Shown here one piece after another: positions 3,349-50,309 of a DNA stretch of 64,000 nucleotides (positions are counted from its first letter, which is position 1; each line of letters begins with the position of its first letter). The stretch is from the NCBI GenBank assembly GCA_937872515.1, contig CALMSX010000048.1:1-64000 (forward strand), in the 5' to 3' direction. Made by a program: the position numbers and the translations under genes. Origin of the DNA: an uncultured Bacteroidota bacterium. GTDB taxonomy: Bacteria > Bacteroidota > Bacteroidia > Chitinophagales > Saprospiraceae. The notes under the pieces were generated by a model. The model was not told the origin of the DNA. It did not search any database and saw only the letters and a program-made list of their open reading frames with translations.

Positions 3349-3750
3349 ATGGCAACCATTCAAAACGTTGTATTAAGTCTTAAAAGAGACAAAGACCGTA
3401 ACCTTGTAAACGTAAAAGTAACAGGCAAAATTTCGTTTACCAAGCTGGAGCAGTGCATTATGAAAACCTGCAAAGATTCTCCCCTGTTCAAACTCAAGTG
3501 TAAACTTTTCGGCGATGATGCCTGGCTGACCGGTGCTGACGACGATCTTTACACCTTCCCCAATGTCAAGGTCTATTCGGATGGCTCACCTGCTCCGGTT
3601 GAAAATTTTGAATTTGAAACCGTGGTTGGAGAAAGCCTGCTTGACGAAGATTTTGGAAAAGACGAGATCTATGCCAAAGTAAAACTTTACAATTTGTTGG
3701 CAGGTACAGTGGCTACCAAAAATTCAAATGTGGTGACCGGCTGGTTCTAA
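3349..3750 (+). CDS. Small soluble orphan protein, unknown function
   Basis: A 133-residue protein without signal peptide or membrane segment. The pattern of alternating hydrophobic and charged residues suggests a mostly beta fold. It has three cysteines (about residues 37, 42 and 52) and an acidic stretch GADDDLYTF near 61-69. I do not recognise the family. The ATG at 3349 follows an A-rich stretch, and the gene is monocistronic: a candidate promoter lies just upstream and a perfect intrinsic terminator begins 8 nt after the stop. Such tight transcriptional insulation suggests an abundantly or independently expressed protein. Confidence 0.8.
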   Translation: MATIQNVVLSLKRDKDRNLVNVKVTGKISFTKLEQCIMKTCKDSPLFKLKCKLFGDDAWLTGADDDLYTFPNVKVYSDGSPAPVENFEFETVVGESLLDEDFGKDEIYAKVKLYNLLAGTVATKNSNVVTGWF

Positions 3751-3757
3751 AATGCAA

Positions 3758-3790
3758 AGAGGGTCTTAAATTAAGACCCTCTTTTTTTTT
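3758..3790 (+). terminator. Strong intrinsic terminator after the 3349 gene
   Basis: agagggtcttaa (3758-3769) pairs perfectly with ttaagaccctct (3771-3782) and is followed by a run of T to 3790. It also faces the end of the minus-strand SOD gene at 3809 and may serve both directions. Confidence 0.9.
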
Positions 3791-3808: not shown

Positions 3809-4819
3809 TCAATGACTACAAAGTCCCTGGATGGTATGAAACACATCGTGGAGGGCGGTCAGTTGCTGATTCAGTTCCTTGTCTTTTTTGTTTTTCATCA
3901 CGGCCTTGTTCAACTTCTCTGCCCCTGCTACCAGGTCTGACAAAGCTTTGTTGATTTCAGGGGTGTTAAAAGTGGTAGGAATCTTCCCTTTTTGGATGGC
4001 CATGGCTTTGAGTGCCATTTCTCCTGATCGTTGTCTGATGGGCTTGAAGTCTCCTTCTTCAGCCGGGTGGAAGGTAGCGGCCATCACTTTATGAAATTCC
4101 TTTAATTCTGTCCACGAATCTTTTTCGATCACAACCAAAAAATCATTGGCCAAAGCGTTGATGTAATTTTCATTGACCTGGTTCCAGTTGATAACATTCC
4201 AGATTGCGGACAGGTAGTCTGCTCGTTTGTTTTGGTATTTTAAGTAGTAGGCATGTTCCCAAACATCGATGCCCAAGATGGGAATGCCCCTAAAGGGAGA
4301 TACATCCATGATGGGATTGTCTTGATTGGGTGAAGAACATACGGCCAGTTTTTTATCGGTAGTAAGGTACAGCCACGCCCAGCCGGAGCCAAAACGGGTA
4401 GCCGCTTCCTTGTTCAACATTTTTTGTAAGCTGTCGAGTCCACCGAGATCGTTGATCACAGCCATGCCCACCTTTGATTCGGGGTTGAAGGCTGCTCTCT
4501 TGCCCAGGATGCTCCAAAAAAGAGAGTGGTTGTAATGACCACCTGCATTGTTTCTGATGGCTCCACCAGCCTTTTCGGCTCGGAGCATGATGTCCATCAA
4601 AGGCAGGGTTTCATACTTGGTGCCCGCTAAGGCCTTATTGAGATTGGTAACATACGCCTGGTGGTGTTTACCGTGGTGGATTTCCATGGTTTGGGCGTCA
4701 ATAAAGGGTTCCAGGGCATCTAATTGGTAAGGCAGAAGCGGTAAAATAAAGGGTCCCGCCGGTTGAGCCCATACCTGGATCGATAAGGCCACTAGAACTA
4801 GGGTGAAAAATGATCGCAT
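3809..4819 (-). CDS. Exported Fe/Mn superoxide dismutase with C-terminal His-rich helical domain
   Basis: A 336-residue protein. Residues 1-19 are a signal peptide. About 24-220 form a complete Fe/Mn-SOD, with ligands H48 (in MEIHHGKHH), H98 (in GGHYNHSLFW), D185 and H189 (in DVWEHAYY). Q166 in NQD is the second-shell glutamine of the Mn type. Typical SODs are about 200 residues, so roughly 110 residues are extra. This tail (about 225-336) is predicted helical and carries H243, M246, H251, H324, H328, C334 and H336, which looks metal-binding. It ends the operon behind the MbnP/MbnH pair (47 nt from mbnH). The SOD call is firm; the tail's role is inference. Confidence 0.93.
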   Translation of the reverse strand: MRSFFTLVLVALSIQVWAQPAGPFILPLLPYQLDALEPFIDAQTMEIHHGKHHQAYVTNLNKALAGTKYETLPLMDIMLRAEKAGGAIRNNAGGHYNHSLFWSILGKRAAFNPESKVGMAVINDLGGLDSLQKMLNKEAATRFGSGWAWLYLTTDKKLAVCSSPNQDNPIMDVSPFRGIPILGIDVWEHAYYLKYQNKRADYLSAIWNVINWNQVNENYINALANDFLVVIEKDSWTELKEFHKVMAATFHPAEEGDFKPIRQRSGEMALKAMAIQKGKIPTTFNTPEINKALSDLVAGAEKLNKAVMKNKKDKELNQQLTALHDVFHTIQGLCSH

Positions 4820-4866
4820 AATTATATTTGTTTAATAATAGTAACAGTTATATCGAGGTAGATGGT

Positions 4867-5877
4867 TCAAAAACGAGGGTCACTTATCAGCTCATAATCG
4901 GTCAAAGTGGATAAAAAGGCAATCAAATCGGCTTTTTCGGAAACCGAAAGGGCAATTCCCGGCTTAGCACCCGACTGAAGCTGAGCTGCCAGGGTAGCTG
5001 AGTATTTAACGCCATTGTTGTAATGCTCCAAAACGGCGTTTAAGTCTTTGAATCTGCCATCGTGCATATAAGGCGCCGTGATGACCACATTTCGCAAAGA
5101 AGGAACCTTAAACTTGCCCAGATCCAGGGCCGATTCTGTAATTCTGGCCCTACCTTCGTCAGCAAACTGGGTATCCAGGCCATTGTTAAAGAATTGCTGA
5201 TTGGTAAAAAGGGGCTCGGTGTGACAACTTGCACATTTTTGTTTATATATATCATATCCCCTGGCTTCAGTTGTGGTAAACTCACTTTTTCCTTGTCTTA
5301 CCTTATCATATTTGCTGGCCTGTGAAACCAGCATCAATTGAAATTGGGCAAGGGCTTTCAAAAGCAGGGGTGAGGTAATGGTATCCATGGTTGGAAATAC
5401 CTTTTTGAAGCGACCCGGATAAGAAGAATGGCGATTGAGTTTAGCCACTACATGGGCCATTTTTTCGTCCATTTCCAGCGGATTTTCAATGGCGTTGGGT
5501 GGTACAAAATCAAGGTGGACCACTCCCCCATCCCACATAAACTCCTTCATAAAGGCCATGTTGACAATGGGTGGTGCATTTCTGATGCCCGACCTTTCAT
5601 CCACACCCAAACTCAGAGCGTGTTGTGGATCGGTAAAGGCCACAGCTTTTACGTGGCAATTGCTGCACGCTACCGAGTTGTCGCTCGACAATAAAGGATC
5701 ATTAAAAAGGTCTTTGCCCAAAACAAATCCATCCTGGGAAATCGGATTTTCATTGAGCGGATAAACAGGCGAAGGAAAATAATCGGGTAGTTGGGGAAAC
5801 AGGGAAGCTTCATCCTTATCGTCTTTTCTGCAAGAGGTAAATAGAAGCAGGCTTATGGCAAATAAGTATAATCTCAT
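4867..5877 (-). CDS. MbnH-like di-heme cytochrome c peroxidase (MauG family)
   Basis: A 336-residue lipoprotein (lipobox FTSC, Cys16) with two c-type heme sites, CSNCH at 71-75 and CASCH at 215-219, and the family motif PYMHDGRF near 269-276 in the C-terminal domain. Bacterial di-heme peroxidases reduce peroxide; the MauG/MbnH branch instead oxidises residues of a partner protein. It follows an MbnP-like gene by 63 nt, the arrangement known for MbnP/MbnH, in which MbnH converts a tryptophan of MbnP to kynurenine. I therefore infer partner oxidation in the periplasm, with plain peroxidase activity as the alternative. A stable hairpin lies between the two genes. Confidence 0.88.
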   Translation of the reverse strand: MRLYLFAISLLLFTSCRKDDKDEASLFPQLPDYFPSPVYPLNENPISQDGFVLGKDLFNDPLLSSDNSVACSNCHVKAVAFTDPQHALSLGVDERSGIRNAPPIVNMAFMKEFMWDGGVVHLDFVPPNAIENPLEMDEKMAHVVAKLNRHSSYPGRFKKVFPTMDTITSPLLLKALAQFQLMLVSQASKYDKVRQGKSEFTTTEARGYDIYKQKCASCHTEPLFTNQQFFNNGLDTQFADEGRARITESALDLGKFKVPSLRNVVITAPYMHDGRFKDLNAVLEHYNNGVKYSATLAAQLQSGAKPGIALSVSEKADLIAFLSTLTDYELISDPRF

Positions 5878-5890
5878 GGTATAAAATTTA

Positions 5891-5920
5891 ACAAGCAGGC
5901 AGACTGTCCTGCCTGCTTGT
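5891..5920 (-). promoter_or_regulatory. Intergenic 12-bp hairpin between mbnP-like and mbnH-like genes
   Basis: acaagcaggcag (5891-5902) pairs perfectly with ctgcctgcttgt (5909-5920) around a 6-nt loop. On the minus strand it is followed by an A/T-rich stretch rather than a clean U run. It could act as a partial terminator or as a 3' stabiliser giving more upstream message. Confidence 0.7.
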
Positions 5921-5940
5921 CGATTTCCAATAAAAAACTA

Positions 5941-6789
5941 TTACTGATGAATATGGTCAAAACTAAATGACTCTTCCATGTTGTGTGCGATGTCTACCCC
6001 ATCAGATGGTTTGTGCACATTGTGGTTGCCTGTAAAATCTACTTTGTGGTGGCCGTTGAATAAGCCCAACACATCAAAAGTCATGTGTACATGAGGGCTG
6101 GATTTGGCATCAACGATGGCATCTGTATCAAAGTCAAAGCTGATTCTTTTGTTGTTGTACACAAAAGCGGTACCAGGGATGTTTTTCCAACCTCCAATGT
6201 GGTAAGCCATGCCCTTTGCATTGTCTGCCTTAATGGTTTCTGCACCGGAAACACCCCCATTGGAGGCATCAGACTGGCCTTCAAATTTTAAGGCAATGTA
6301 GCCTGAATTCCAATTCCAAAACATCTTGCTGGTAGCAGGATCCAGGGCACCACCGGTTGCACCATTCAATACACCTGTGCTATCTACTCCTACGGTAAAA
6401 GTAATTTTGTTGTATTTGCCGGAAGGAAGGTTCGCTAATTCAATTACCTGAGAAGCGGGCTTGCTTTCATCAATTAAATAGTATCCTTTGGTACCTGATG
6501 CTGTAGCTTCGAGCACATCTTTATATACGGTTCCGTCGGTGGCTTCCAATTCAATGGCAGAGATGTAGTATCTCAGCAAATTGATGTTAAATTTCTGACC
6601 CAAAGAATTAGTATAGCTGTAGGTTGTGCTGCCCGGAGTGGCCATTGTGAGTTGCTGCTGGATGCCATTCACAATGGCAATGTTGTCAAATTCCACTTCC
6701 ATTGAACCCGTTGTTGCCGGTTCGTCTTTATCACAAGAAAAAAAGATAACGAGGGTCAAAAGGGTAAATAATTTTATAATTGATTTCAT
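5941..6789 (-). CDS. MbnP-like copper-binding lipoprotein
   Basis: A 282-residue lipoprotein (FFSC, Cys19). Its sequence pattern fits the MbnP-like family: an early strand EVEFDNIAIVNG, N-L-L-R-Y-Y-I-S near 70-77, VGVDSTGVLNG, FWNWNSGYIALKFEG, AYHIGGW and a His-rich C-terminus (H-V-H-M, GHHKVDF, FDHIHQ). In methanotrophs MbnP binds copper through His residues and a kynurenine formed from tryptophan by MbnH. Candidate target tryptophans here are those in FWNWN and HIGGW. It lies directly upstream of the MbnH-like gene and 23 nt behind an outer-membrane protein. No methanobactin precursor or MbnB/MbnC gene is present, so a general copper-binding role is more likely. Confidence 0.82.
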   Translation of the reverse strand: MKSIIKLFTLLTLVIFFSCDKDEPATTGSMEVEFDNIAIVNGIQQQLTMATPGSTTYSYTNSLGQKFNINLLRYYISAIELEATDGTVYKDVLEATASGTKGYYLIDESKPASQVIELANLPSGKYNKITFTVGVDSTGVLNGATGGALDPATSKMFWNWNSGYIALKFEGQSDASNGGVSGAETIKADNAKGMAYHIGGWKNIPGTAFVYNNKRISFDFDTDAIVDAKSSPHVHMTFDVLGLFNGHHKVDFTGNHNVHKPSDGVDIAHNMEESFSFDHIHQ

Positions 6790-6812
6790 TGTTTTTTCTT
6801 TTATTAAATATT

Positions 6813-7706
6813 TTAGAATAAATAAGTTAGTTGGGCACTAAATCTGTGGCCTGCTGTTACCTCTTCATTGGCATATTGTGAATGAAAAGGTTGGGCAAGT
6901 GAAAGATCCGCCACATAGTTGTTAAATTTCACATTGAATCCGGTAAGCATGTAATTTCCGGTTGCCCCTGTACCATGTTCATATTTGCCTTCACTGTTGA
7001 TATCTCTGGCAATGTTTTCATAGTGCCATCCTGCATAGGGTGTCACCGAAAACGATCCGGAGATTTTGAGCGAATAAAACAACATGGTCTGGACAGAAAG
7101 TTGGCGACCGAATTGGTAATGTTCTGCATTTTCGAAACTCCACTGGGCACTTGGGGATAATAAAATCCCTAACCCTTTGAAGGTAAGGAAGGCATTGATA
7201 CGTGCCACAGGAGACCAGGCCTGATTTCCGGTATTAAAATTCACCGGCAGCTTGCCTTCTGCCAAATCCAGATTAAAATTACCCGTAGGTAGTTTTAAGC
7301 CTGCCCCTGCATCCATATAAAAGGAGGTGGAAGAAAACTTGGAATTGACCAATACCCTGTTGAGTGTAGCCTGCAAATCACCAATGCCATTGACATTGTA
7401 ATTTCCATTTAAGCTGGTACGTGTATTCCATTTATAAGGTACAGAAGCAAGTACATACCAATTATTGGCAGGTGTGATCCTCAGTGACGCCGTTAAGCTA
7501 TAATGTTTGTCATGCGTAGATAAGGTCTGTGAAAGAGCACCATCAAAGCCATAGCCAAAATAGCTTAAGCTGAGGTGATTTTTCTTAAACAAGGTAGTTA
7601 AACCACTTGAACCCGCTCCAACACTGCACCCACAAACATCACAGGCTTTTACATACGACAAACTGAAGATCATACCCACCAAAATCAAAGTGATTTTGTG
7701 AAACAT
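6813..7706 (-). CDS. CDVCGC-type outer membrane beta-barrel protein
   Basis: A 297-residue protein with a signal peptide (about 1-21) followed at once by a CDVCGC cluster (C22, C25, C27) and a Gly/Ser stretch. The remainder has alternating hydrophobic strands ending in FSAQLTYLF, the terminal aromatic signature of outer-membrane barrels. Homologous annotations are usually transporter or hypothetical. The N-terminal Cys cluster could be a metal (copper) docking site or a lipid/disulfide anchor. It sits 23 nt before the MbnP-like gene and 59 nt after a Cys-rich membrane protein, so transport or sensing of the same metal is plausible but not shown. Confidence 0.75.
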   Translation of the reverse strand: MFHKITLILVGMIFSLSYVKACDVCGCSVGAGSSGLTTLFKKNHLSLSYFGYGFDGALSQTLSTHDKHYSLTASLRITPANNWYVLASVPYKWNTRTSLNGNYNVNGIGDLQATLNRVLVNSKFSSTSFYMDAGAGLKLPTGNFNLDLAEGKLPVNFNTGNQAWSPVARINAFLTFKGLGILLSPSAQWSFENAEHYQFGRQLSVQTMLFYSLKISGSFSVTPYAGWHYENIARDINSEGKYEHGTGATGNYMLTGFNVKFNNYVADLSLAQPFHSQYANEEVTAGHRFSAQLTYLF

Positions 7707-7765
7707 GATTCAAAATTTGAAAGACTGTTAATTGGGGATCAGGTCAAGCCTGAAATAATAGAGGA

Positions 7766-8146
7766 TCAGGCCGAGTGTTCTGGTGGCGGGGAAAATAACA
7801 GTAAAAAGGTGGTGGGCTGTTTTGAAACAGCATATTGAATTTCTTTCTTTGAAAACTCTTTTTTATCGATAAGCGGCAGTAAAACAAGCTCTACCATCGT
7901 GTAATACACTTGTTTTAATTCTTCCTTGGTAGGAGGATATTTAGAAGCATCCTGAGTTTGTTTGAGCTTCTTCATCAAAAAACACTTACCATTACATTTT
8001 AAGGCAGGATTGTTTCTGTTGACACACATATACCTGGCCACAAAACTGCGATTGGCTTTGAACTGCACAACGGTAACCCAGTCCTTTATACAGAGTACAG
8101 TGAGGAGGGCGATTAAAAACAGAGATATGTATTGTTTGAAATACAT
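7766..8146 (-). CDS. Small Cys-motif membrane-anchored protein
   Basis: 126 residues from the ATG at 8146; a longer frame begins with TTG at 8155 and is less likely. One N-terminal hydrophobic segment (about 5-22) is followed by a conserved-looking block CVNRNNPALKCNGKCFLMKK (three cysteines) and a Pro-rich C-terminus (LFSPPPEHSA). I do not know its biochemical function. Proteins with this CNGKC block recur in Bacteroidota. Here it is the first gene of the metal/redox operon, so a role in metal handling or envelope disulfide chemistry is inferred from context only. Confidence 0.7.
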   Translation of the reverse strand: MYFKQYISLFLIALLTVLCIKDWVTVVQFKANRSFVARYMCVNRNNPALKCNGKCFLMKKLKQTQDASKYPPTKEELKQVYYTMVELVLLPLIDKKEFSKKEIQYAVSKQPTTFLLLFSPPPEHSA

Positions 8147-8209: not shown

Positions 8210-8240
8210 AAAAAAAAAGGGAGGCGCTGCCTCCCTTTTT
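8210..8240 (-). terminator. Intrinsic terminator downstream of the DUF1573 gene
   Basis: gggaggc (8219-8225) pairs with gcctccc (8229-8235) around a 3-nt loop. On the minus strand it is followed by a run of at least eight U (A tract to 8218). It separates the DUF1573 gene from the metal/redox operon, whose promoter must lie in 8147-8210. Confidence 0.85.
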
Positions 8241-13534: not shown

Positions 13535-13900
13535 ATGTTAAAAAATATTGTTGCCTTATTTTCAATAGGCTTATTGATTGTTTCTTGTGGAAAAGACACC
13601 AGCAGTTACACCGATAAAGTGGATTGTACGGGAATTGATGCAGATCAAAACACATACACCAAAAATATTAAAGCCATTGTCGATGGTTCATGTGCCTATT
13701 CAGGCTGCCATGACAGCAAGACAGCGGCCGAAGGAATCAACCTTAGCACCTACGCCAATACAAAGAGTGAATTTGTAAGTGGAGATGCCTTGTGCACCAT
13801 TTACCACGACTGTACCCCCATGCCCCAGGGAACCGACCAATTGGACCAGGAGACCCTTGATCAGCTGACCTGCTGGGTAAAAAACGGAGCCCCTCAATAG
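13535..13900 (+). CDS. Small c-type cytochrome-like lipoprotein with CX4CH motif
   Basis: A 121-residue lipoprotein (lipobox LIVSC, Cys18). It contains CAYSGCH, a heme-attachment-like CX4CH site, and further on PMPQG followed by L-x-x-x-x-L-x-x-L-x-x-W and NGAP, the layout of small class I cytochrome c domains in which the Met of PMP is the sixth heme ligand. A second Cys pair (about residues 89-95) flanks the PMP motif. Four residues between the heme cysteines is unusual; canonical sites have two. An electron-carrier or heme-binding role outside the cytoplasm is likely. It appears to be transcribed alone. Confidence 0.78.
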   Translation: MLKNIVALFSIGLLIVSCGKDTSSYTDKVDCTGIDADQNTYTKNIKAIVDGSCAYSGCHDSKTAAEGINLSTYANTKSEFVSGDALCTIYHDCTPMPQGTDQLDQETLDQLTCWVKNGAPQ

Positions 13901-45223: not shown

Positions 45224-45933
45224 GAGTTCACGGTTTTAGCCAATAAGGTAACAATCGCCTTTGAAATCTTTGACTCCTTGGTTTCCTCTAACAAGGCTTC
45301 TACCGACTTGTGAAACAAAATTCTGCCCTCCTGCATAAAAATAATTTGAGAAACAAGATCATCTAACTCACTTAAGATATGACTGGTAATTAAAACCAAT
45401 TTGCCATTAATTACTTCCTGTGATATTTTTAGCTTCAAAGTTTCTGAAGACAATGGGTCTAGGCCGGCGGTTGGTTCATCCAGTACTAAAACAGGTGGGT
45501 TAAAAAGAAAGGCTAAAGCTGCACTCACTTTTTGAATCGTGCCTCCTGACAAAGTAGCCATTTTTTTGGATTGCAGTGTTCTTAATCCAAAACTATCTAT
45601 CAAGTATTCATCATAAATAGGTTGATCAGGTCTAAGGTGTCTTACCATGTCGATGAGTTGACCTATAGTAAGATTGCCCGGATATTTACCTATTTGAGGC
45701 ATATAGCCTAATCCAGCGCGGTGTAGGTGTTGATGGATGATTTCAGCCCCATTGACGTGAATACTTCCCTCATCAGGAATGACCATGCCCAACAGGCTTT
45801 TTATCAAGGTCGTTTTGCCGCATCCATTGGGGCCGATTAGTGCTATACAATGGCCAGAAGCCATGTCAAGATTGACATTTTTTAAGACCTCCAGGCTTCC
45901 AAATCGTTTAGAAACATTCTCAAATTGAATCAT
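45220..45933 (-). CDS. nosF: NosF, ABC ATPase for NosZ maturation
   Basis: A 237-residue ABC-type ATPase: Walker A GPNGCGKTT (about 34-42), Q-loop region YMPQIGKYPG, signature LSGGTIQK (about 132-139), Walker B VLVLDEPTAGLD and the H-switch ITSHILSEL. It powers the NosFYD complex on the cytoplasmic side of the membrane. Four-nt overlaps join it to both nosD and nosY, showing tight coupling. Confidence 0.93.
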   Translation of the reverse strand: MIQFENVSKRFGSLEVLKNVNLDMASGHCIALIGPNGCGKTTLIKSLLGMVIPDEGSIHVNGAEIIHQHLHRAGLGYMPQIGKYPGNLTIGQLIDMVRHLRPDQPIYDEYLIDSFGLRTLQSKKMATLSGGTIQKVSAALAFLFNPPVLVLDEPTAGLDPLSSETLKLKISQEVINGKLVLITSHILSELDDLVSQIIFMQEGRILFHKSVEALLEETKESKISKAIVTLLAKTVNS

Positions 45934-47162
45934 AAATAAACTGGTTTCATCCTGGGTTTTTCATCAATAAAATTATCAGGTGTGATGCTGGGCATGACTT
46001 TTTCTGTTCTATCCATAAGCATTACAATAAAACTCCTGTACAACATCATAGCAGATGGATTGTTTTCTGCTATTTTAGAATACAAACTTAAAGGATGGAA
46101 GGGTATATCTCCAAAACCGTCTTTATTTAAATCATATCCTTCATATTTTTGCCAATAATTATTTTCAAATGTGTTGAGTACTAAATCTCCATTGGTGCTA
46201 ACATCAAAGGTATTACCTTTAAAGTCATTCTGTAAAATCCTATTATCCATACAACTCGCCTGGATTTTCATGCCCCATCCATTGTCATCAAAAGTATTTT
46301 CAACAATATCTGCCCTGCTAACTCCTTCCAGGTAAATACCCGCAGTATTTTTGTTGAAATAGTTGTTAAGAATATTACAATCTGAAATCTCTTTTAATAG
46401 CAAGCCATAAGAAGCATCACCCCAATTTTCAACAAAATGATTATTGATCATTAATACCCTTTTAGTAAACATAACCGCAACGCCTGATCCGTTTTCCCTG
46501 AACACATTTGAAATGTAGGCATCGTCATTCGAAAACATGAAGTGAAGCCCATATCTTATGTTGTTGTGTGACCTATTTCGCCAGATAACAGAATGAGTTA
46601 CAAACTCAAAGTAGATACCATCTCTGTGTCCACATATTTCATTTCCAATAATTTGCAAACTATCGCTCTTCCAGCAATGAATACCATTGCCAATCATCTG
46701 TTCATCTTTGCCGTACGCTCTTATCTTGTTGCCTCTTATTACACATTTTTTACTGTATTGGAGGTAGATGCCGAAAAAATTATCCTCTAACTTATTTCCA
46801 ATTATATTCACATGAGAAGCGTCATATACTTTAATAGCAGCTGGATCTTCGAGGGATGCATAATTAGAACCTTTTACGACCAGTCCGCTGATCAAAACAT
46901 TACTTGCCTTAACAGATAAAATCTCAACTTTTTTTTCGCCATCCAGTACAGGCCACCCAATACCAATTAGAGATATCGGCTTATCGATGATTAAATTCCC
47001 TTCACTGTATTGGCCAGAATGAATCAAAATTGTGTCTCCTGCACTTGCAGCTTTAAAGGCAAGCGATAATTTTTGAAAGGTAAAATTTTTACCAACATTT
47101 AAAGTCCTGGCACTAAGAAAATATGAGAAACTTATGCAAAAAATTATTGAATATAACCGCAT
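45930..47162 (-). CDS. nosD: NosD, periplasmic beta-helix NosZ maturation protein
   Basis: 410 residues from ATG 47162, directly after the nosL stop (1-nt gap). An earlier in-frame ATG at 47264 would overlap nosL by 101 nt and lacks the signal peptide at its N-terminus. The signal (about 1-18) is followed by a right-handed parallel beta-helix (about 60-340) with repeated N-x-I/F-x-x-N coils such as GNGIHCWKSDSLQIIGNEI. NosD works with NosF and NosY in building the copper-sulfur centre of NosZ. It overlaps nosF by 4 nt. Confidence 0.93.
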   Translation of the reverse strand: MRLYSIIFCISFSYFLSARTLNVGKNFTFQKLSLAFKAASAGDTILIHSGQYSEGNLIIDKPISLIGIGWPVLDGEKKVEILSVKASNVLISGLVVKGSNYASLEDPAAIKVYDASHVNIIGNKLEDNFFGIYLQYSKKCVIRGNKIRAYGKDEQMIGNGIHCWKSDSLQIIGNEICGHRDGIYFEFVTHSVIWRNRSHNNIRYGLHFMFSNDDAYISNVFRENGSGVAVMFTKRVLMINNHFVENWGDASYGLLLKEISDCNILNNYFNKNTAGIYLEGVSRADIVENTFDDNGWGMKIQASCMDNRILQNDFKGNTFDVSTNGDLVLNTFENNYWQKYEGYDLNKDGFGDIPFHPLSLYSKIAENNPSAMMLYRSFIVMLMDRTEKVMPSITPDNFIDEKPRMKPVYL

Positions 47163-47163
47163 A

Positions 47164-48177
47164 CTATTGAGCAAAAATAATACCCCTGTCAATTTGTATG
47201 CCCTTCCATACTTCATTGTATTCTTGTAGTTGTTTTTCATCTCTGAATGCTGCAATATTTCCACGCATTGGGCTTTGTATGGCGTCTCCTTGCACGAAAA
47301 CCAATGAATCCAGAGGAGTCAGGTGCCCAGGATCCGCATAATCACAAATATATACTTCTGCTTTTGGATCTGCAACTAAATCTGACACATAGGCTTGGAG
47401 ACACAAAACATCATCAAATTTGTATACCCTACCTTTGCCCGTAATCAATTCTGCCGCAAAACGAGTATCAGCAATGTTCATTTTACAATGGTGACAAAGA
47501 TCCTTATGAACTTCGATGGGTTCAGGCCCAGATGGACCGCAAGCGCCCAATAAAAGAGAAATCACCATAAAAAATGTTACTTTAGCCACTGTACCAGAAG
47601 GAAATTTATTTTTCTTAAATTCTAGGTAAGAAGCAACCACCATTAACAAGCCCGCCAAAATAAACAACCAGCCACCAATATCGGGAATCGAATATGCACC
47701 AAAATTCAATAACTGTTTAAATCCGATAAGCGGAGGCTGATAAGCCATTCCAGGTACAACAATGGCTGCATTGGGATCTAAGTTATGCCCATATTCATAC
47801 TCCCATCTCCAGAAATCGTACATCGCCAACATACCAAAAGAAACAAACAGAGCGAGGACAATGTATATCCATTTTTTATTGCCAAAAAAGGCAGACAGGA
47901 TGGCAATCAAAGCAAAAAAACCGATAATGTAGGGCAATACAGTGAACTCAACAAATTCTTCGGCATGCAAAGTTTTCATTCCAATGTAGTGATTTAGTCC
48001 GTTGACAATTTCAACATCGCCCCCCAATTTATTGGCATAGATGAGCAACCTCAATCCTTCAGGATATTGAGGAGCATCAAGATCTATTCTCCAGATGGGA
48101 ACAAAAATGGATATTGCCAATGACAATCCTGCCAAAATCATGGCAATAAAAGCAAAAGCTGATAATCGTGCATTCAT
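47164..48177 (-). CDS. nosL: NosL copper chaperone fused to an N-terminal membrane domain
   Basis: 337 residues from ATG 48177; TTG 48183 is an upstream alternative. Residues 1-190 form a membrane domain with about four helices (8-28, 80-98, 104-122, 165-185). A fifth hydrophobic stretch (198-212) ends in a lipobox-like LLGAC (Cys213), followed by the NosL domain (about 220-337) with the copper-binding C228-H-H-C231-K-M233 and a C-terminal FDDVLCLQAYV region. Normal NosL is a lipoprotein of about 170-200 residues, so this is a fusion or read-together of two genes. NosL delivers copper to NosZ. The N-terminal domain may couple copper handling to the membrane. Confidence 0.9.
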   Translation of the reverse strand: MNARLSAFAFIAMILAGLSLAISIFVPIWRIDLDAPQYPEGLRLLIYANKLGGDVEIVNGLNHYIGMKTLHAEEFVEFTVLPYIIGFFALIAILSAFFGNKKWIYIVLALFVSFGMLAMYDFWRWEYEYGHNLDPNAAIVVPGMAYQPPLIGFKQLLNFGAYSIPDIGGWLFILAGLLMVVASYLEFKKNKFPSGTVAKVTFFMVISLLLGACGPSGPEPIEVHKDLCHHCKMNIADTRFAAELITGKGRVYKFDDVLCLQAYVSDLVADPKAEVYICDYADPGHLTPLDSLVFVQGDAIQSPMRGNIAAFRDEKQLQEYNEVWKGIQIDRGIIFAQ

Positions 48178-48189
48178 GATCAAAAATTT

Positions 48190-48218
48190 AGAAAAAAGGG
48201 GAAGCTAACGCTTTCCCC
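48190..48218 (-). terminator. Hairpin with U-tract between nosZ and nosL
   Basis: On the minus strand gggga-type arms (48198-48203 with 48212-48217) form a hairpin followed by a U run from the A tract at 48192-48197. It stands 13 bp before the nosL start and about 110 bp after nosZ, so it may terminate most nosCZ transcripts. Confidence 0.7.
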
Positions 48219-48329
48219 TCTGTAATATTAAATATAGGCTACCAGTTCGCAATTGAATCTAAACTCTATATTAATTGACATTCTCTATGGATTGATTGTA
48301 TGTAAACTTAAATTTACTTTTATTCTGAA

Positions 48330-50309
48330 TTACTTAGCTGGCTGTGTACTATTGCCACCCAGGGTAAAGCTGAGGGGCACCTTACTGGTTGCCGGGGACA
48401 CCCTAACATAACCTTGCATTTCCTGGTGTAAGGCGCTACAAAAGTCAGTACAGTACATTGGAAAAATACCCACTCTGTCGGGCTGCCATTTGAGGGTGGT
48501 TGTTTCACCTGGCATGATTAGCAATTCTGCATTATTGGCTCCCTTAATGCCAAACCCATGAGGAACATCCCAATCCTGTTCAAGGTTTGTAACGTGAAAA
48601 TAAACTTCATCCCCCATTCGAACACCTTCAATATTATCTGGAGAAAAGTGAGATCTGATGGCAGTCATATATACATGAACTTTATTGCCTTCCCTTACGA
48701 CCTTACTTTCGCCTTCTCCCTTAGCGGCTCTTGGATGCTTATTCTCATCGATTTTAAATAATTTAACCTGACCGTTGTTCCTGATCAGATCAGCCGGTGC
48801 AGCCTGCGCGTAATGGGGTTCACCAATGGTTGGAAAATCAAGGATGAGTTGCATCTTATCACCGCTGATATCGTACAGCTGAGCACTTTGTGACAATTCC
48901 GGCCCCGTTGGAAGATATCTGTCTTTGGTGATCTTATTATACGCAATCAAATACTTTCCAAATGGTTTTTTGGAATCACCTCCGGGAACACACAGGTGGC
49001 CTACTGAATAATAAGTTGGCACCCTGTCCAAAACTTTTAGGTCCTTGATGTTCCACTTTACCACTTCAGAAGAAACAAAGAAGGAGGTATAGGCATTGCC
49101 TTTGCCATCAAATTCGGTGTGCAAAGGTCCTAAGCCTGGCTTTTTAACCTCTCCATAAAGGGCAGCTTCATACTTTATTACATTTATGCCATCATATTCT
49201 CCTTCAAAACTTTTGTCAGCAATGGCTTTCTGCAATTTATCAAATGAAAAAACTGGAATAAGGGCAGCTAACTTACCACTGCCTACGATGTACTCGCCAC
49301 TTGGATCTACATCACAACCGTGGGGGGACTTAGGGCAAGGGATCATGTAACACAAATCCTTTAGTTCTTTGGCATTCAATACGGTCACCTCATTTTTAAT
49401 GGTGTGAGTAGCTGAATGGGTTTCATCGCTGTAAACATTGTGTGCATATCTAACAGGCACTTTTTTGCCCTTTCCTGCTTTCAGATATTCTTCTGCCTTC
49501 TTCCAGTTAACCGCCATGATAAAGTCTTTGTCTTTTTGAGATGCATTGACCTCCAGCAAGGTGTTTGCCTGTTCTGTGTTGTAACAAGAGAAAAAGAACC
49601 AACCGTGCGATTTCCCTTTGCCGGCATGGCTGAGGTCAAAATTAACTCCGGGACATTGAATCTGGAAAGCAAGGTCCATGGAGCCTGAAGTTTTGTCAAC
49701 AGAGATAAAGCTTAAATGACCTTTAAAATTTTCTTTATAAGTAGAAATGGCAACATCTCCATTAACGTTGTCAGCAGGCACAGAAAATCGCGTTCCGGCT
49801 ACTACGTATTCTGTATTTTCTGTAATAAATGGGGATGAGTGGTTACCCCCGCTATTGGGCAATTCAATGATTTCAGCAGTTCTAAAAGTTTTTAAGTCGA
49901 TCCTTGCCACCCTCGGTGTGTTATTGGCATTGCCAAACACCCATCTGCCATCCACTTCACCATTCGTTTGTGACAACTCGGGGTGGTGGAGATCATCCCA
50001 TGGAACAAAGCCGTGTGAGGTCATCAGCATTGGCTTGGTTTCTTCACTATACCCCCATCCCTTTTCAGGATCAACAGAAAAAACTGGAATGACACGCAAT
50101 AATCTGCCACTTGGTAGTCCGTAAGCGCTCATTTGACCGCTAAATCCGCCGCTTACAAAATTGTAAAACTCATCGTATTTTCCCGGTGGTACATAGGCTT
50201 TCGCCGCGGCATCCCCACTTACTGCAGTACTAGCATTTTTTGGTTTGCACGAATAAATACTTAGGATAAGGGCAAAGCAAGCCCCTCCAATCCATAGATT
50301 GAATTTCAT
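48330..50309 (-). CDS. nosZ: Nitrous oxide reductase, clade II type
   Basis: A 659-residue copper enzyme that reduces N2O to N2 in the periplasm. The N-terminus has a Sec/lipoprotein-like signal ending SIYSC (Cys21) and no twin-arginine motif, as in clade II NosZ. The seven-bladed propeller carries His of the CuZ site, seen in DLHHPELS, KSHGWFFFSC, ATHTIKNE, PKSPHGCDVDPSG, GPLHTEFD and SVGHLCVPGGD. The C-terminal cupredoxin has the CuA ligands C620, C624, H628 and M631 in YCTDFCSALHQEM and an earlier H in VPHGFGI. It is preceded by a cytochrome c gene (40 bp) and followed by the maturation genes. Confidence 0.97.
   Translation of the reverse strand: MKFNLWIGGACFALILSIYSCKPKNASTAVSGDAAAKAYVPPGKYDEFYNFVSGGFSGQMSAYGLPSGRLLRVIPVFSVDPEKGWGYSEETKPMLMTSHGFVPWDDLHHPELSQTNGEVDGRWVFGNANNTPRVARIDLKTFRTAEIIELPNSGGNHSSPFITENTEYVVAGTRFSVPADNVNGDVAISTYKENFKGHLSFISVDKTSGSMDLAFQIQCPGVNFDLSHAGKGKSHGWFFFSCYNTEQANTLLEVNASQKDKDFIMAVNWKKAEEYLKAGKGKKVPVRYAHNVYSDETHSATHTIKNEVTVLNAKELKDLCYMIPCPKSPHGCDVDPSGEYIVGSGKLAALIPVFSFDKLQKAIADKSFEGEYDGINVIKYEAALYGEVKKPGLGPLHTEFDGKGNAYTSFFVSSEVVKWNIKDLKVLDRVPTYYSVGHLCVPGGDSKKPFGKYLIAYNKITKDRYLPTGPELSQSAQLYDISGDKMQLILDFPTIGEPHYAQAAPADLIRNNGQVKLFKIDENKHPRAAKGEGESKVVREGNKVHVYMTAIRSHFSPDNIEGVRMGDEVYFHVTNLEQDWDVPHGFGIKGANNAELLIMPGETTTLKWQPDRVGIFPMYCTDFCSALHQEMQGYVRVSPATSKVPLSFTLGGNSTQPAK

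Follow-up and report, generated by a model that had tools for sequence, protein, structure and literature searches.

In the 2021 PNAS study of MbnP, the first tryptophan of a WxW motif reportedly becomes kynurenine. The MbnP/MbnH pair of Methylosinus trichosporium (7l6g and 6e1c; TIGR04052 and TIGR04039) is encoded by adjacent genes, and pairs of this kind occur far beyond the methanobactin producers (PMC3621798), including in copper operons headed by CruR (PMC9426467). A surface copper protein with a Trp-to-kynurenine conversion and a co-transcribed di-heme peroxidase-like protein likewise form the CorA/CorB and MopE/SACCP systems of methanotrophs, for which the available portions of the reports mention no leader, barrel, or SOD (PMC3912023, PMC3423442). 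CorA and MopE are not members of the MbnP family, and the sequences are not markedly similar (PMC3621798).

CruR of Bordetella pertussis (DUF2946) is the first ORF of its operon and contains an export signal, a Cys pair, and a Pro-Pro at a fixed spacing before the stop codon (PMC9426467, PMC12992588). CruR operons carry TonB receptor, PepSY_TM, SCO, and MbnPH genes, and a CruR deletion is not rescued when the gene is provided in trans (PMC9426467). According to the main text of the report on CutF-like proteins, these combine CxxxC with a C-terminal PP, lie upstream of copper genes with short gaps, and include many listed Bacteroidota members; this text describes neither a CxGxC...PP subfamily nor its MbnPH operons (PMC9973294).

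The five-gene unit and its MbnP/MbnH pair

The window (the whole stretch of DNA that was analyzed, 64,000 nucleotides) contains five minus-strand genes with intergenic gaps of 59, 23, 63, and 47 nt, as an ORF check of the preliminary description confirmed (Table 1). Terminator-like hairpins flank these genes, one directly upstream of the small gene and one after the SOD gene, and with a hairpin at each end the five genes look like a single transcription unit. The complete five-gene order is also present in two close relatives (contigs L035 and L036), and a block of the small-Cys, MbnP, MbnH, and barrel genes recurs in many Bacteroidota, with the barrel gene either preceding or trailing the MbnP-MbnH pair. 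The methanobactin biosynthesis genes had been described as missing, and MbnB (PF05114) indeed has no match in the whole genome. The initial interpretation, an envelope operon with a conserved order and an MbnP/MbnH copper module outside methanobactin loci, is supported in these respects; the role assigned to the small Cys protein and the relay from SOD to MbnH do not stand as stated.

Table 1. Features of the operon and their positions in the window
Feature	Position	Strand	Remarks
Intrinsic-terminator-like hairpin	3756..3784	+	near-symmetric stem; between the SOD gene and the convergent + strand gene 3349-3750
Exported Mn-type superoxide dismutase with C-terminal four-helix domain	3809..4819	-	SOD domains E=5e-36, 1e-30
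C-terminal domain (TAIL), SOD residues 232-336	3812..4126	-	four near-invariant His: H243, H251, H324, H328
MbnH-like di-heme (MauG/bCcP) lipoprotein	4867..5877	-	CCP_MauG E=4.9e-47
Strong 14-bp hairpin between the MbnP and MbnH genes	5890..5921	-	possible differential-expression element
MbnP-family lipoprotein	5941..6789	-	PF20243 E=1.5e-42, 146.1 bits (cut-off 27)
WNW codons, W158-N-W160	6310..6318	-	first Trp is the predicted kynurenine site
Outer-membrane beta-barrel, N-terminal CDVCGC, FapF/COG4313-like predicted fold	6813..7706	-	
CDVCGC codons	7626..7643	-	invariant C22, C25, and G26; C27 in 90% or more
Proposed arrest-peptide-like leader that would sense copper; exported/membrane protein of 126 aa	7766..8146	-	conserved motifs, operon contexts
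PPP codons close to the stop codon, candidate stalling motif	7781..7789	-	family consensus FHPP/FRPP
CNGKC codons, putative Cu-binding CxGxC	7982..7996	-	
Intrinsic-terminator-like hairpin	8214..8240	-	12-bp stem and T-run; 3' of the upstream DUF1573 gene, which it parts from the operon

The earlier assignments of MbnP and MbnH hold, as judged from PF20243 in the former, CCP_MauG with two CXXCH motifs (C71-C74-H75 and C215-C218-H219) in the latter, and the adjacency of the genes. A search of the PDB with the single MbnP sequence returns only a spurious nanobody match, and the family profile is needed to reach 7l6g (E=7e-6). In that alignment the first Trp of WxW (W158), the M-x-W-x-W motif, and the conserved His correspond to those of 7l6g. 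The best PDB match of MbnH is the di-heme enzyme 6e1c; the MauG-like protein of the operon shares with MbnH of M. trichosporium the PYMHDG motif and the C-terminal PRF ending. The pair differs from that of M. trichosporium in that methanobactin genes are absent, both proteins are lipoproteins, and both score below the NCBIfam cut-offs. MbnP reaches 31.8 bits against TIGR04052 (cut-off 140) and lacks its four-Cys motif, with only the lipobox Cys present, and MbnH reaches 202.6 bits, under the cut-off of 362.85, against TIGR04039, which is nevertheless its best-scoring NCBIfam model.

Among 47 distinct MbnPs from Bacteroidota, 46 carry WxW, and all 46 adjoin an MbnH, a count that takes in L057, where the genes abut and an over-called start left the automated tally at 45. 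The sole MbnP without WxW, encoded in the same genome (L043), has no MbnH neighbor. The lipoboxes in the operon run into C-D-K-D-E and C-R-K-D-D. The motif C-X-K-(D/E)2 is the surface-export signal of Capnocytophaga (PMC5080379), and its exact form occurs in only 3/36 MbnP and 4/46 MbnH lipoboxes.

The small Cys protein at the head of the operon

An N-terminal hydrophobic segment of the small Cys protein corresponds to an export segment, and an alignment of 26 homologs reveals that C41, C51-x-G53-x-C55, and P120-P121 are invariant. A Pro-Pro lies one to five residues ahead of the stop codon in 74 of 76 homologs, compared with 3 of 1176 other ORFs taken as background, and the last Cys and the Pro-Pro are separated by a spacing of 62-70, whereas the central part of the protein lacks conservation. 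The family is present in 118 of 296 genomes from the phylum Bacteroidota and is mostly encoded by the first ORF, ahead of co-directional copper genes; the operons that it heads contain copper TonB receptors, YHS, PepSY_TM, SCO, and MbnPH genes. Among untagged first genes downstream, 24/36 encode TonB receptors, nine of which match TIGR01778 (TonB-copper), and PepSY_TM (10/40) and SCO1 (5/40) are found among the subsequent genes; these are the partners that have been listed for CruR (PMC9426467). The gene in the window thus shows the leader features of the CruR/CutF type, namely a first ORF, an export segment, a Cys motif, a C-terminal PP, and copper genes downstream. The protein looks like a copper-sensing arrest peptide in its anatomy, and the role of a regulatory leader peptide is likelier for it than that of a component of the envelope. 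The gene described initially as a "Cys-rich small membrane protein" is confirmed, and the conserved Pro-Pro end points to a different likely function.

The leader and CruR differ in that CxGxC replaces CXXC, F[H/R]PP replaces RAPP, and the spacing is 62-70 rather than about 45. Profile similarity between them is undetectable (hhalign), and homology to DUF2946 (PF11162) was rejected on the basis of a Pfam scan of 26 members (E<=10) and an hhalign probability of 0.2%; the Pfam scan places the small protein in no other family. In another member of the Bacteroidota, a DUF2946 gene fills the same slot ahead of MbnP-MbnH. The leader may also not regulate in the same direction as CutF-like proteins.

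At the 3' end of the leader gene, C exceeds G, as at the rut site of CruR, a signal to which amino-acid composition contributes (at third codon positions, 0.054 vs 0.018). The gap between the leader and the next gene is short (59 nt), and the gaps after leaders show more structure (median z -2.3) than do control gaps (-0.7), which fits a stem-loop of the CutF type equally as well as Rho. Intrinsic attenuators are not enriched in the leader gaps (8/61 vs 24/130 control gaps).

The barrel and the SOD with its C-terminal domain

The barrel matches no family in a Pfam scan, and its profile matches FapF (E=9e-5). The structure model (pLDDT 82) resembles FapF in a Foldseek search (E=1.6e-12, TM 0.62). 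The predicted fold may be held in common with the FapF/COG4313 outer-membrane channels (5o67, 4rl8), from which the operon barrel differs in its N-terminal CDxCGC, the low identity (13-16%), and the copper gene context.

The exported SOD contains both PF00081 and PF02777, and its IHH, GGHYNH, and DVWEH motifs align with those of 6gsc, the best PDB match. A second, unfused SOD is encoded elsewhere in the genome. The protein was initially described as a Mn-type SOD with a His-rich tail; the exported Mn-type SOD is confirmed, and the tail is a folded four-helix domain in the prediction, not a mere His-rich extension. This domain belongs to no known family found by Pfam, PDB sequence search, or plasmid tblastn. 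Its predicted fold matches cytochrome b562 over the whole length (TM 0.68; Foldseek E=0.02; 15-17% identity). The two may have a four-helix bundle in common, whereas the tail domain has no sequence similarity to b562, carries four conserved His, and is fused to SOD or DJ-1. Sixteen genomes have both the domain and copper loci, and in six of them the two lie close together, far above the chance expectation of 0.06; of the 47 distinct MbnP loci, five have a copy of the domain.

A proposed copper-acquisition operon and its alternatives

In light of these features, we consider it rather probable that the operon serves copper acquisition at the Bacteroidota envelope and is controlled co-translationally by copper. 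In this model, the nascent chain of a CruR/CutF-type leader would sense copper through CxGxC and stall, or fail to stall, at the C-terminal Pro-Pro, thereby setting the expression of the downstream genes, with the operon probably on under copper scarcity. MbnH would oxidize W158 of MbnP to kynurenine, and the kynurenine-bearing lipoprotein, apparently a surface protein, may bind Cu(I). The CDVCGC barrel may serve as an outer-membrane partner or channel, and the exported SOD, whose b562-like His domain may bind metal or heme, would shield a redox-active copper/heme site from superoxide.

A different direction of control is assumed if the operon serves defense against copper and oxidative stress: excess copper would induce it, with stalling raising expression as in CutF, MbnP would sequester Cu(I), and SOD would remove superoxide. 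The structured leader gaps, as CutF needs, and the occurrence of the tail domain with SOD beside RND metal efflux genes (L123) and YHS/SCO genes (L124) are consistent with this reading. We consider it unlikely, however, in that the operons headed by the leader family are most often TonB receptor/PepSY_TM units, some of them with TIGR01778 copper receptors, a content typical of uptake, and the kynurenine copper proteins studied in most depth, CorA/MopE, are repressed by copper (PMC3912023). It is quite improbable that the small Cys protein acts in trans as an ordinary periplasmic copper chaperone or a metallothionein-like membrane protein rather than as a cis-acting leader. The conserved C-x9-CxGxC and the export signal would be appropriate for a protein that carries copper, but such a role does not fit the near-invariant PP at a fixed spacing after an unconserved middle, the mostly first position of the gene before co-directional copper genes, or the equivalent position held elsewhere by CruR-family genes.

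The preliminary description instead proposed a self-contained unit in which SOD turns envelope superoxide into H2O2 for the modification of MbnP by MbnH. Enzymes of the MauG type use H2O2. Gene neighborhood is what suggests this relay: SOD ends the unit in three related genomes, and in another lineage (L078, L201) exported SODs also lie within the MbnPH operons. However, SOD is found within 3.5 kb at only 5 of the 47 MbnP loci, three of them from one close clade, which indicates that the majority of MbnP/MbnH pairs function with no SOD gene nearby. Additionally, superoxide dismutates to H2O2 without an enzyme, and no sequence feature joins SOD and MbnH; we regard the relay as very unlikely. 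For the tail domain, the full-length fold match would also suit a b-type cytochrome that holds heme between its first and fourth helices and passes electrons to SOD or MbnH, in place of a His metal site. This assignment is possible though doubtful, since the Foldseek E value is modest, the fold is common to many four-helix bundles, and the conserved His of helices 1 and 4 number four, more than the Met/His pair of b562.

Copper uptake in Bacteroidota is little understood. If the acquisition model is right, a leader peptide whose Cys and Pro-Pro are invariant would constitute a testable, phylum-wide switch for copper acquisition operons, Trp-to-kynurenine copper proteins would be placed among common environmental bacteria, and a name would be given to an uncharacterized domain that is recurrently fused to envelope SODs in the vicinity of copper genes. 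A broader proposition, to which we give an even chance, is that the CxGxC...F[H/R]PP proteins are a Bacteroidota family of arrest peptides that sense copper, have no sequence relationship to CruR, and run copper TonB-receptor and MbnP/MbnH operons throughout the phylum, and that the SOD-fused four-His helical domain binds metal or heme and is new to copper homeostasis. If this is true, two independent leader families, CxGxC...F[H/R]PP and DUF2946, would have been recruited to one operon position.

Layout and conservation of the operon

The five minus-strand ORFs, separated by gaps of 59, 23, 63 and 47 nt, lie where the preliminary description had placed them, and a TAACTTTG box, seen on inspection of the sequence immediately 5' of the ATG of the small Cys gene, resembles the Bacteroidota -7 element. 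The hairpin between the MbnP and MbnH genes perhaps sets unequal expression of the two. A small lipoprotein with a heme-like motif, GSCAYSGCHD (13535-13900), shows no relation to the operon.

Coordinates of the operon genes and the hairpins around and within them
Feature	Position	Strand	Type or location
Small Cys protein	7766-8146	minus	ORF
Barrel	6813-7706	minus	ORF
MbnP	5941-6789	minus	ORF
MbnH	4867-5877	minus	ORF
SOD fusion	3809-4819	minus	ORF
Terminator-like hairpin	8240-8214		between upstream DUF1573 gene and small Cys gene
Terminator-like hairpin	3756-3784		beyond SOD gene
Strong hairpin	5921-5890		between MbnP and MbnH genes

Gene order is conserved: the nearest named relative, a Saprospiraceae MAG contig (L035; MbnP 96% identical), carries the five genes in unchanged order, all five are present in L036 (MbnP 83% identical), and two Membranihabitans loci (L038, L039) keep the first four, with the SOD missing. 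The MbnP and MbnH assignments likewise hold. MbnP matches PF20243 (E = 1.5e-42), and a search with its family profile leads to a single solved structure, 7l6g, a 'metallo-mystery pair system four-Cys motif protein', with which the GMxWxW and the conserved His align; the NCBIfam equivalog cut-off is not reached and the four-Cys motif is absent. MbnH contains two CXXCH sites, matches CCP_MauG and has 6e1c as its best PDB match. MbnB was not found anywhere in the query genome, in agreement with the reported absence of methanobactin genes, and the pair is already known well beyond methanobactin producers (PMC3621798).

MbnP relatives are present in 70 of the 296 genomes of the phylum sample, and the neighbourhoods examined around the best relatives from these 70 yield 47 distinct MbnP genes. 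The WxW is found in 46, and MbnH adjoins all 46 (the automated count gave 45, as the L057 pair overlapped through an over-called start). The sole MbnP without WxW, the fourth of the query genome (L043, contig C28), also lacks an MbnH neighbour, a co-occurrence expected if MbnH acts on the first Trp of WxW. On another contig of the query genome (L042, contig C24), one MbnP is followed by two tandem MbnH-like genes. The small CNGKC gene is near 26 of the 47 MbnP genes, a CDxCGC barrel near 24 and both near 22.

The lipobox Cys contexts of MbnP and MbnH (C-D-K-D-E and C-R-K-D-D) match the optimal surface-export signal of Capnocytophaga, C-X-K-(D/E)2-X (PMC5080379), which predicts surface export by a signal from another Bacteroidota family; only a minority of the MbnP and MbnH lipoboxes surveyed show C-X-K-(D/E)2 exactly. 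The barrel model (pLDDT 82) and profile would place this protein with the FapF and COG4313 outer-membrane channels, and model confidence is low for residues 14-33, the N-terminal segment that holds CDVCGC.

A proposed CruR-like leader family

The small Cys protein had been described as a Cys-rich membrane protein; its anatomy and gene company, both of CruR type, make a regulatory leader peptide the likelier role. In an alignment of 26 homologs, only C41, C51, G53, C55, P120 and P121 are invariant. The last Pro-Pro lies 1-5 residues ahead of the stop in 74 of 76 homologs (7 and 8 residues in the other two) and 62-70 residues past the last Cys, and the same ending occurs in just 3 of 1176 other ORFs (>=100 aa) of the same loci. 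The family is present in 118/296 genomes and 57/140 genera. Among the 36 first downstream genes other than MbnP, barrel, tail or SOD, 24 encode TonB receptors (9 matching TIGR01778 TonB-copper), 4 YHS and 4 YtkA-like proteins; the second gene is often PepSY_TM (10/40) or SCO1 (5/40).

CruR has a signal, a CXXC and a RAPP three residues from the end at a fixed 45-residue spacing, and its gene stands upstream of TBDT, PepSY_TM, SCO and MbnPH, CruR-headed operons with MbnPH-like genes being already published; its nascent chain senses copper, and relief of arrest leads to Rho termination (PMC9426467). The arrest has been demonstrated in vitro, and Cu-related RAPP/RGPP uORFs are reported to be lacking in Bacteroidota (PMC12992588). 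At its 3' end, the leader gene is richer in C than in G (bubble median 0.19 versus 0.10 in controls), as at the CruR rut site; the excess at third positions is 0.054 versus 0.018. Amino-acid composition accounts for part of this signal, and the sequences are related. Gaps after the leader carry more structure than other gaps do, so that either direction of control would fit; the uptake-type partner genes favour the CruR direction.

The leader profile has no similarity to nine Bacteroidota DUF2946-like proteins, and in another Bacteroidota (L230/L237; L237:2251-4836) the gene immediately before MbnP-MbnH belongs to DUF2946, the CruR family, which points to two unrelated leaders in the same position. 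The anatomy also fits the CxxxC plus C-terminal PP pattern of CutF-like proteins, and the leader family may be among the 5,334 such proteins listed, many of them from Bacteroidota (PMC9973294).

The SOD fusion and the proposed working of the operon

The catalytic part of the fusion is a normal exported Mn-type SOD; the query genome has a second, unfused SOD. The C-terminal tail domain, without relatives in Pfam, PDB or plasmid searches, is modelled as four helices (pLDDT 96), most like cytochrome b562 (TM 0.68, E 0.02), with two near-invariant His on helix 1 and two on helix 4. It occurs in 34/395 Bacteroidota-phylum genomes as a small exported protein, a SOD fusion or a DJ-1/PfpI fusion, the last immediately upstream of MbnP-MbnH (L061:8285-9433). 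Fusion to SOD is found in at least four separate lineages (the window clade, L123/L124, L130 and L140), and standalone copies are encoded immediately after MbnH in L047 and immediately after the leader in L141/L142. The domain lies <=3.5 kb from a copper locus of this kind in 6 of 16 genomes having both (expected 0.06), or in 4 genomes without the query genome and one congener; the P-values are indicative, the pairs being hand-compiled and the locus placed inexactly in two genomes. One genus has an exported SOD without the tail in a two-leader operon, leader-YHS-SCO-SOD-leader-MbnP-MbnH-barrel (complete in L078; parts visible in L197, L201 and L203).

The preliminary description proposed a self-contained relay in which peroxide made by the SOD feeds MbnH. 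Such a supply is possible; it is not required, because a linked SOD is missing from most MbnPH loci. The SOD and its His domain would probably guard the redox-active site from superoxide. In CorA/MopE, kynurenine is a copper ligand and a di-heme protein is co-transcribed (PMC3912023).

The operon parts are of known kinds, and the literature consulted holds no description of the five-gene combination, of an F[H/R]PP/CxGxC leader with MbnPH operons or of the SOD-fused domain. By analogy with CruR, the leader Pro-Pro would hold the ribosome when copper is scarce, so that the genes after the leader are expressed, and copper bound at CxGxC would release the ribosome and stop expression. By analogy with MbnP/MbnH and CorA, MbnH would turn W158 of MbnP into kynurenine by oxidation, and this lipoprotein, once modified, would capture Cu(I); the barrel, judged only from its position and conserved Cys, would be the outer-membrane element. 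Some 40 kb from the operon and still on its contig, translations read by eye show a nos cluster (45930-50309) with NosZ-like copper enzyme, NosL-like and NosD-like genes, the NosZ-like gene (48330-50309) having a CuA-type C terminus. This cluster is a possible client for the copper acquired by the operon.
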